This document shows positions 1 through 3,450 of a DNA stretch of 64,000 nucleotides, piece by piece; within the stretch, counting starts at the first letter, position 1; every line of letters begins with the position of its first letter. A program made the position numbers and the translations under genes. The notes beneath the pieces were generated by a model. It was not told the origin of the DNA. It saw only the letters and a list, made by a program, of their open reading frames with translations, and did no database searches. The stretch lies in the NCBI GenBank assembly GCA_027023805.1, contig JALVUF010000059.1:1-64000 (forward strand), given 5' to 3'. This DNA comes from Helicobacteraceae bacterium (GTDB lineage Bacteria; Campylobacterota; Campylobacteria; Campylobacterales; Sulfurimonadaceae).

Positions 1-1237
1 CAATATCCGCATGTCTGTGTCTTCCACAGCCTTTAGCGCATCCTGAAAATCCTATCTTGATTCCATGTTTTTTTATCATCTTAATTGGAAGATATGATGT
101 TTCATCTTTAATGTTCCAAAATGAAAACGGACAATACTCACTCCCGGCACAAGCGATTATGCCGTGATGCGAGTTTGGTGAACTTATGCACTCTTGAATA
201 TTTTGTATGCCAAAAAGATATATGTTTTGATCAATGCCCAGTTTAATCTGTAAGTTTTGCTCTGCGGCATAGTTGCATATATTTTGAATCTCTTGAATGC
301 TTATACGACCATAATCACTCTGGTAACAATAGGCGTAACTTCCATCTTTTAATTTCTCAAACTCGGAAAATTTTCTTTTTTGCACATGTAGTTGTCCGGC
401 AGATATAAACTTTTTGTTAAATCCTATTTGAATGTATTGTTTAAATTTTTCAATGCCTATCATTTGAAGCAGATAAAATAATCTTGTTTTAGAGCGTGTG
501 CCCCTGTAGCCATATATTATAAATGCTTGTAAAAATGCTTTATAAAACAAAAAAACTTCATCCGGCTTTAAAAAGATATCTGCATCTTGCGCAATTTCAG
601 AATTTTTCCCACCCATAAAAACGTTAAAGCCATAAATATCATTTTTCTTAGCTAGCGCAAAATAAAGATCGTTTGAGAAAAGCGATACGGTATTTTCTTT
701 GTTTGCAGATATGCCCACAGATATCCGCCTTGGCAGCATCCCCATAAAGTTTGGCTTTTTTTGAACATATTGATGCATTTGCTCAATAATTGGCGTTACA
801 TATATAATGTTATCTTTTGTAACGCCATCATAGACATCTGTTGTGATACTTCTGACGTTATCGCTTATGCTCTGCCAGGTTGTAACTTCAAGATTGTTGA
901 TTGCTTCAAATACACATAAAACATTATCTGCCGTTAATCCATGAATTTGCAAACCAGCTCTAGCTGTCAGTATAATGCTTGCATCATTTTCTTGGGCAAT
1001 TTTAACTATATCGTTTAACTGTTGTATGGAAATTTGCCCGGCTATTAATTTGATGCGAACGGTAAATTCATCTTCTGCAAAACCAAGGTTGATGATACCA
1101 AAATTTTCAATATAATATCTATCAATACTTGATAAATTGTTAAAATCTAAAGTATCTATCTGCGTATAAAAATCATATGGCTTCATTCTTTGTTTGTAGC
1201 GTTCGTATTTATTTAGCTTTAATGGTTCTTGCATCAT
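1..1237 (-). CDS. Nitrite/sulfite reductase-like protein (siroheme/4Fe-4S type), truncated at the window edge
   Basis: Not in ORF track. Manual minus-strand translation from ATG at 1237 (MMQEPLKLNKYERYKQRMKPYDFY...) is open to position 1 and ends ...IGFSGCAKGCGRHRHADI, a siroheme/FeS reductase-like Cys motif (CxxxCGRH). AAGGGACTT RBS-like sequence upstream. Confidence 0.75.
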   Translation of the reverse strand, partial: MMQEPLKLNKYERYKQRMKPYDFYTQIDTLDFNNLSSIDRYYIENFGIINLGFAEDEFTVRIKLIAGQISIQQLNDIVKIAQENDASIILTARAGLQIHGLTADNVLCVFEAINNLEVTTWQSISDNVRSITTDVYDGVTKDNIIYVTPIIEQMHQYVQKKPNFMGMLPRRISVGISANKENTVSLFSNDLYFALAKKNDIYGFNVFMGGKNSEIAQDADIFLKPDEVFLFYKAFLQAFIIYGYRGTRSKTRLFYLLQMIGIEKFKQYIQIGFNKKFISAGQLHVQKRKFSEFEKLKDGSYAYCYQSDYGRISIQEIQNICNYAAEQNLQIKLGIDQNIYLFGIQNIQECISSPNSHHGIIACAGSEYCPFSFWNIKDETSYLPIKMIKKHGIKIGFSGCAKGCGRHRHADI

Positions 1238-1281: not shown

Positions 1282-1295
1282 TTGATACAAATCAA
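1282..1295. promoter_or_regulatory. FNR/CRP-family-like operator TTGATACAAATCAA inside the longer palindrome ATATTGAT-acaa-ATCAATAT
   Basis: Perfect TTGAT-N4-ATCAA in the intergenic region between divergent genes (starts at 1237 minus and 1345 plus). Confidence 0.6.
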
Positions 1296-1312
1296 TATAA
1301 AAAGTAAAATAT

Positions 1313-1330
1313 ACTGTATAATTATACAGT
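1313..1330. promoter_or_regulatory. Perfect 18-bp palindrome ACTGTATAATTATACAGT upstream of the globin-PsiE gene
   Basis: Self-complementary sequence directly before the GGGGGTAA RBS-like sequence and ATG at 1345. Confidence 0.45.
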
Positions 1331-1344
1331 GTGGGGGTAATATC

Positions 1345-2253
1345 ATGACACAACATTATGAAACAATATTAAATCATTATCAGTTTACTCAAGAAGACAG
1401 TGATATTTTGATGAGTTTAGAGCAACGGATGCAGCCACTTCGTGAAGAGTTTATCAACGGTTTTTATGATTATATTTGGAAATTTGGCGAGACAGCTACA
1501 TTTTTAAAAAACAAAGAAGTTATAAGCTATCACAGAGAGAAGATACAGGAGTGGTTTGTTAACCTTTTTTGCGGAAAATATGATATGAATTATTTTATAT
1601 ATTTGTATAAGATTGGGGAGATACATGTAAAAATCGGGTTGCCTACGCATTATGTCAATGCCGCTTTTACATATGTTAGGACATTTATTTCCAAACAGCT
1701 TCAAAATGATTGTAATAATAGAGAAAAATTATTAAAAGAGTTAAGAGCCGTTGAGAAGATTATAGATGTTAATCTTGATGTGCTGACAAGTTCTTACAGA
1801 GAAGAAGAGCTTAGTAAATTTCTCTCAATGTCAAAAGGTGAAAGAAAAATATTGATAGGGTTAAAACATTTTACATCATATGCAAACCTATTGTTAGCAG
1901 GAGCCTTAGCTCTTGTGGCTATCTTTGCTGTCAGTTTATTTTCTTATGATGTGTATAATATGTTTTTTTCCGACGAAGAGATACAAAAAGGTATTTTAAC
2001 CGTTTTTGGAAGTTTACTTATTTTATGGGCAGCTATTGAACTAATTCATGAAGAGATTAAGCATCTTCAAGGTGATGGTTTTGCTATAGGAACATTTATC
2101 ATGCTGGCAATGGCAGCACTTATACGTAAAATACTTATATACTCTTTGTCGCCGTCTAAAATGCATGAATTATTAATTATAGGGCTAGTGACGGTTGGGC
2201 TCGCCGTAGCTTATTGGCTAGTAGGTATCAACAAAAGAACTTTGATAGACTAG
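1345..2253 (+). CDS. Protoglobin-domain protein fused to C-terminal PsiE-like transmembrane domain
   Basis: ORF 1282..2253; MTQHYE start at 1345 preferred (GGGGG RBS). N-terminal globin-sensor-like region (FYDYI...IGEIHVKIGLPTHYVNAAFTYVR), then about four TM segments with PsiE-like IELIHEEIK / MLAMAALIRKILIY. Confidence 0.7.
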   Translation: MTQHYETILNHYQFTQEDSDILMSLEQRMQPLREEFINGFYDYIWKFGETATFLKNKEVISYHREKIQEWFVNLFCGKYDMNYFIYLYKIGEIHVKIGLPTHYVNAAFTYVRTFISKQLQNDCNNREKLLKELRAVEKIIDVNLDVLTSSYREEELSKFLSMSKGERKILIGLKHFTSYANLLLAGALALVAIFAVSLFSYDVYNMFFSDEEIQKGILTVFGSLLILWAAIELIHEEIKHLQGDGFAIGTFIMLAMAALIRKILIYSLSPSKMHELLIIGLVTVGLAVAYWLVGINKRTLID

Positions 2254-2543
2254 AAGTTGCCGCCATTTCTAAACTCAGCTATTTCAGACTCGACCATATC
2301 ATCAATGATAATTTCATAGAGTTTTGTGATAAGGTTTGGCGAGAGGTTTAAAGCCAGAGCTTTATGTCTTACGTTTTGCAGTACTTCATCCACTCTCTCC
2401 TTTGCTTTTATCTCCTCAATACTGTTTTTAAATTTGACTGCCTGACGAATATACCGGGCACGCTTGGAAATGAGTTTTACGATTTCATCATCTAGTTTAT
2501 CAATCTCTTCTCTGACCTCTTTTAGCGAATGACATTCTCTCAT
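2250..2543 (-). CDS. Chorismate mutase family protein
   Basis: LKEVREEIDKLDDEIVKLISKRARYIRQAVKFK is a typical AroQ-type chorismate mutase / isochorismate pyruvate lyase-like helix pattern. Confidence 0.75.
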   Translation of the reverse strand: MRECHSLKEVREEIDKLDDEIVKLISKRARYIRQAVKFKNSIEEIKAKERVDEVLQNVRHKALALNLSPNLITKLYEIIIDDMVESEIAEFRNGGNF

Positions 2544-3362: not shown

Positions 3363-3450
3363 TGGTGGACAGTGAGGGATTCGAACCCTCGGTAGTTTTG
3401 CTACGGCCGCGTTCCAGGCGACTGGATTAAACCAGCTCTCCCAACTGTCC
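3363..3450 (-). tRNA. tRNA-Ser (GGA)
   Basis: Minus-strand GGACAGTTGGGAGAGC...TCGCCTGGAACGCGG...GGGTTCGAATCCC...ACTGTCCACCA; 7-nt anticodon loop CTGGAAC, long variable arm, encoded CCA. Confidence 0.9.

Follow-up and report, generated by a model that had tools for sequence, protein, structure and literature searches.

The globin-coupled sensor of Geobacter sulfurreducens, GsGCS, whose globin domain has been crystallized (PDB 2w31), is bis-histidyl, with His66 at position E11 as the distal haem ligand (PMC4476040). Our literature search found no paper that identifies the output of GsGCS since this domain was solved, and none that names an architecture joining a protoglobin to a PsiE domain or gives its function. 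GSU0935 was rejected as a candidate for GsGCS because it is a c-haem PAS chemoreceptor domain. PsiE (PF06146) is a widespread family of membrane proteins to which, as far as we are aware, no molecular function has been assigned; in E. coli, psiE is induced by phosphate starvation.

The window, by which we mean the whole 64,000-nucleotide stretch of DNA analyzed, contains a gene in which a protoglobin domain and a PsiE domain are fused (Table 1). In the initial annotation this gene started at TTG 1282; we place the start at ATG 1345 because homologues begin at that residue, while the TTG opens a regulatory palindrome, TTGATACAAATCAA. A GGGGG stretch (1333-1337) precedes the ATG. The same annotation described an N-terminal haem globin followed by a PsiE-like C-terminus with four membrane helices, and Pfam bears out both parts, with PF11563 at E 2.5e-26 (93.0 bits; cut-off 25) and PF06146 at E 1.1e-21 (77.7 bits; cut-off 23.9). 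A phmmer search of the PDB returned 2w31 as the top match (6.7e-37, fusion residues 7-160). Structure prediction, suggested earlier as a check, gave an AlphaFold2 model (mean pLDDT 79.9, pTM 0.51) with a globin fold, a long helix, and a membrane part of four long helices, and Foldseek again found 2w31 as its best PDB match (TMt 0.92, rmsd 1.5), making GsGCS the closest solved protein by both sequence and fold. The fusion has the N-terminal protoglobin domain and proximal F8 histidine of a globin-coupled sensor together with a conserved second domain, PsiE, that has a putative role in signal transmission. As in the GsGCS-type family, both domains lie in one chain of about 300 residues that aligns co-linearly.

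Table 1 Features of the Protoglobin-PsiE locus in window coordinates
Feature	Position	Strand	Basis or remark
NirA/sulfite-reductase-type sirohaem protein	2..1237	-	PF01077 E 1.6e-26; cut by contig edge
Exact FNR/DNR-type box TTGATACAAATCAA, between the divergent genes	1282..1295	.	Exact-match search
TATAAT, possible -10 of fusion gene	1317..1322	+	Read from sequence
Protoglobin-PsiE fusion gene	1345..2253	+	302 aa + stop; ATG; homologues start at matching residue
Protoglobin domain, residues 8-155	1366..1809	+	PF11563; PDB 2w31 by phmmer and Foldseek
His63 codon, E7 position (GsGCS Leu62)	1531..1533	+	Alignments; invariant in Campylobacterota group
Ile67 codon, E11 position	1543..1545	+	GsGCS haem-ligand His66 aligned there
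His94 codon, predicted proximal (F8) haem ligand	1624..1626	+	Aligned with GsGCS His93; invariant
Linker helix, residues 126-161	1720..1827	+	Strongly conserved; runs towards first membrane helix
PsiE domain, residues 181-294	1885..2226	+	PF06146; four predicted membrane helices

The C-terminal domain belongs to the PsiE family proper, with a score over the Pfam cut-off, four membrane helices, and Glu232 in TM2 (2038-2040) and Arg261 in TM3 (2125-2127), two residues common to the fusions and the stand-alone PsiE proteins of the same phylum. The membrane helices are near-invariant among aligned homologues, and the linker stretch from E137 to E155 hardly varies. Predicted on its own, the PsiE domain again forms four helices (mean pLDDT 83). 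A profile search of the PDB with this domain gave zero sequence matches among solved structures, and Foldseek comparison of its predicted fold with the PDB gave nothing significant, the best hit being Orai at E 0.33. At its 3' end, the fusion gene overlaps by 4 bp with a convergent gene for a stand-alone type II chorismate mutase (2250-2543, minus strand); also on the minus strand of the window are a tRNA-Ser (GGA; 3363-3450) and a gene for a 1057-aa GH15/phosphorylase-b-kinase-like protein (PF00723, PF19292; 4465-7638) adjoining glucokinase.

Protoglobin-PsiE fusions occur in well over 100 bacterial genomes from three lineages, the Campylobacterota, the Desulfuromonadia, and one deltaproteobacterial class (that of locus L090), and both Pfam domains were confirmed in members of each group. 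Taking one genome per species, we found 60 loci, mostly from Sulfurimonas, Sulfurovum, Sulfuricurvum, and Hydrogenimonas, and the full fusion is patchily spread, being found in 9 genomes of a 249-genome sample of the phylum. Matches were present in 57 of the 63 genomes of the L090 class, nearly all of them full length, and in 71 of 146 genomes of the Desulfuromonas class (L086), about 60 over the full length. In a tree of globin domains, 2w31 lies inside the clade of Geobacter-type fusions (support 100/99) and its close relatives, which are 55-67% identical and encoded in frames at least about 300 aa long, carry PsiE; the architecture is therefore already known by one solved domain. The earlier statement that this architecture has no characterized function stands with respect to function, while the architecture itself is that of GsGCS. 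G. sulfurreducens itself was outside the genome set searched and, judging from these relatives, GsGCS would have a PsiE domain of its own. Three Desulfuromonas sequences (L153, L154, and L086) fall among the Campylobacterota in the same tree, in which deep branches are weakly supported, a placement that would be expected from transfer.

Alignment with GsGCS places His94 opposite the proximal His93, so that the proximal histidine required by the initial annotation is present, and this residue is invariant in all aligned homologues. On the distal side the two proteins differ: the window protein has Ile at E11, where GsGCS has its ligand His66, and carries a histidine at E7 instead, so that the E11/F8 bis-histidyl pair of GsGCS is absent. 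In a Campylobacterota-centred set, His occupies E7 in 58 of the 58 sequences with a residue there and E11 is Ile, Leu, or Val; similarly, His at E7 and Leu or Ile at E11 are found in 29/29 sequences of the L090 class among the matches listed. Geobacter-type proteins have mostly Leu at E7, and His at E11 in 17/19 among the matches listed; the bis-histidyl trait is not universal even within the GsGCS clade. Because E7-His and E11-His divide by branch, the distal histidine has shifted by one helical turn between branches, and the window protein represents a new distal-pocket variant of the GsGCS architecture. His63 is a candidate for contact with the haem iron, the predicted model being haem-free.

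The genes surrounding the fusion point to nitrogen oxides in part of the family. At 19/60 Campylobacterota loci, a core NO/N-oxide marker (a gene of the nor, nap, haem-d1, flavodiiron, or globin kind) is found no more than about 6 kb from the fusion, versus 0/60 control windows placed systematically in six of these genomes (Fisher p 3.5e-7). This p value is only indicative, as the marker list was drawn up with the loci already in view and the genomes, being related, are not independent; about two thirds of the Campylobacterota loci have no core marker. The fusion closes operons of norCBDQ followed by COX3-like and COX4-like genes at L046 and L052, and also at L087 and at L050, which is partial; for NorB of L046, the solved cNOR 3o0r_B is a match at 2e-197. 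The COX3-like and COX4-like genes that precede the fusion in the nor operons of L046, L052, and L087 are small, membrane-protein-encoding, and norE/norF-like; the L087 fusion is split over two frames, perhaps because the copy is broken or because of a sequencing error. Elsewhere, the fusion has a globin gene on one side and Rrf2/norQDBC on the other (L066), immediately follows a Crp/Fnr gene and has norCB close by (L079), separates haem-d1/DUF2249 genes from napA (L044, L049, and L078), or comes after cydAB (L035) or a flavodiiron protein gene (L086 and L202-L204). Within the Campylobacterota, flavodiiron, hemerythrin, truncated-globin-like, or SOD genes adjoin it at still other loci; hemerythrin, CydA, and flavodiiron proteins were checked with Pfam, while SOD and truncated globins were read from sequence and have at best a weak Pfam match. 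A TM_HPP membrane protein is encoded about 3 kb or less from the fusion, in several orientations, at nine Campylobacterota loci (L038, L047, L053, L063, L066, L070, L074, L075, and L087). At L202-L204, from the Desulfuromonas class, the fusion is 67% identical to the window protein and is flanked by genes for a flavodiiron protein, a PAS protein, and cytochromes of the NapC/NrfH type and the multihaem hydroxylamine-oxidoreductase-like type; here, it looks like a gene transferred from Campylobacterota into an N-oxide cluster. A neighbor of the L203 fusion considered as an NO-repair protein was rejected, as it is DUF1858/SBP_bac_6.

NO is not a theme of the whole family because in the L090 class the fusion lies within an ndk-fusion-rlmN-mtnP-pfkB housekeeping operon and in Geobacter types it adjoins hemH or hypF/hypD, and on these contexts we rejected an NO link as a universal trait. 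At L182-L201 the operon of the L090 class extends to a TPR gene and is conserved in most members; ndk and hemH were identified by NCBIfam, and the remaining ndk-operon and hyp genes were read from sequence. No partner gene is conserved across the fusion loci examined. A NorB-like gene is present in 9/9 fusion genomes of the 249-genome sample and likewise in most relatives, a weak test of function given how common a 40% NorB-like paralogue is among lithotrophs of the phylum.

The gene divergent from the fusion, previously called nitrite/sulfite-reductase-like, is indeed of the NirA/sulfite-reductase type; its full form, of 574 aa, is found in a 95% identical contig (L032). The palindrome TTGATACAAATCAA, in the 107-bp intergenic region between the two genes, conforms to the TTGAT-N4-ATCAA FNR/DNR consensus. 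DNR binds this box, and the NO regulon has nnrS among its core genes (PMC1274295). It is the only exact box in the 64 kb, with 0.25 expected from a Markov-1 simulation, and the window genome has 11 exact boxes of this type versus 3 for the reversed control. The other ten include one box at 56 bp from nnrS (PF05940 E 2.8e-58), one at 64 bp from moaA, and one at 113 bp from radA, each on the upstream side, and most of the rest are intragenic. If TATAAT (1317-1322) is the -10 element and transcription starts at about 1330, the box center would be near -41.5, the position for direct activation. The box is retained in L032; upstream of the other fusion members, mismatch counts equal those of shuffles, and a family-wide FNR/DNR box was therefore rejected. 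The window genome encodes a Crp/Fnr regulator without N-terminal cysteines (L304), a candidate for binding the promoter box, as well as cNorCB (L293) and a cd1 nitrite reductase (PF02239 E 4.1e-51; L294), and by its gene content it is a denitrifier.

Because the fusion often lies next to genes for making or removing NO in relatives, it is probably a membrane-bound NO or O2 sensor. We suggest, with a probability of roughly 0.55, that it is a globin-coupled sensor that is tethered to the membrane and shares the GsGCS architecture, with NO or O2 as input and PsiE as putative output. In this model, a cytoplasmic, probably dimeric protoglobin domain would bind haem through His94 with His63 over the distal face, and the binding or loss of a gas, most likely NO in Campylobacterota with O2 also possible, would move the linker helix and, through the first membrane helix into which it leads, switch the four-helix bundle of PsiE to another state; the bundle would pass the signal to some partner or to an ion flux. 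In the Campylobacterota branch, the fusion would serve denitrifying or microaerophilic cells, and in the window genome both the fusion and the divergent reductase would probably be activated by a Crp/Fnr-family activator.

Some of the neighbors, cNOR, flavodiiron protein, and single-domain globin, remove NO, and it is possible, if somewhat unlikely, that the fusion is no sensor at all but a membrane-anchored globin that handles NO or O2, scavenging or converting NO on the inner membrane face beside NO reductase, with PsiE serving mainly to anchor it. A distal His at E7 combined with an aliphatic E11 residue, which resembles the classical O2-binding globins, would suit such a role. However, the protein lacks a reductase domain and no electron donor is conserved, conservation in the linker helix equals that in the haem pocket, and the TM2 Glu, the TM3 Arg, and near-invariant membrane helices would be unnecessary in a mere anchor. 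The ndk-fusion-rlmN operon of the L090 class, in which 57/63 genomes match, and the hemH or hyp neighbors in Geobacter types argue instead for a general housekeeping sensor of haem, redox state, or O2 at the envelope, for which a bis-histidyl GsGCS would be well placed as a redox sensor; the N-oxide context of Campylobacterota would then be a local co-option. We regard this as quite improbable, since it is NO/N-oxide genes that are enriched near the fusion in Campylobacterota and since an FNR/DNR box precedes the window gene.

The initial annotation tied a gas or redox sensor to N or S oxides by way of the reductase. The N-oxide link was recovered in the enrichment of marker genes, but the pairing with the reductase was not: it is absent in the other fusion members surveyed, where the sole nearby homologue, at L036, shares 31% identity and lies some 5 kb from the fusion, and in G221 a homologue stands at an unrelated locus, so that we rejected reductase and fusion as a conserved unit. 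The two genes diverge around one regulatory box and L032 keeps this arrangement; even so, we consider it very improbable that they form a functional pair for sensing or electron supply in nitrite or sulfite reduction.

Returning to the sensor of GsGCS architecture, we speculate, as an unlikely but broader extension, that Protoglobin-PsiE proteins are a distinct class of globin-coupled sensor in which haem with gas bound gates PsiE directly, for example as a bundle that conducts ions or protons or controls a partner and has a conserved intramembrane Glu and Arg, and in which the shift of the distal His by one helical turn would retune the sensor from redox state and bis-histidyl ligation in Geobacter to NO in denitrifying Campylobacterota. 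Across three lineages, the orphan PsiE domain is combined in a single architecture with a haem input that can be measured, and a natural swap of the distal His, together with neighborhoods that name the likely ligand, makes the output of GsGCS and the function of PsiE testable in culturable species.

Among known systems, HemAT, AfGcHK, DosC, and BpeGReg have the same N-terminal protoglobin fold and proximal His as the fusion, but for output they have an MCP, histidine kinase, or diguanylate cyclase domain rather than a PsiE membrane domain. The Protoglobin-EAL proteins of Campylobacterota (L011, L012, and L018), with globins 35-45% identical to that of the window protein and also with His at E7, have EAL in place of PsiE (domain confirmed in L018). 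Conversely, stand-alone PsiE proteins share the family-level score, the four helices, and the Glu and Arg residues with the fusion but, unlike it, are without a globin.
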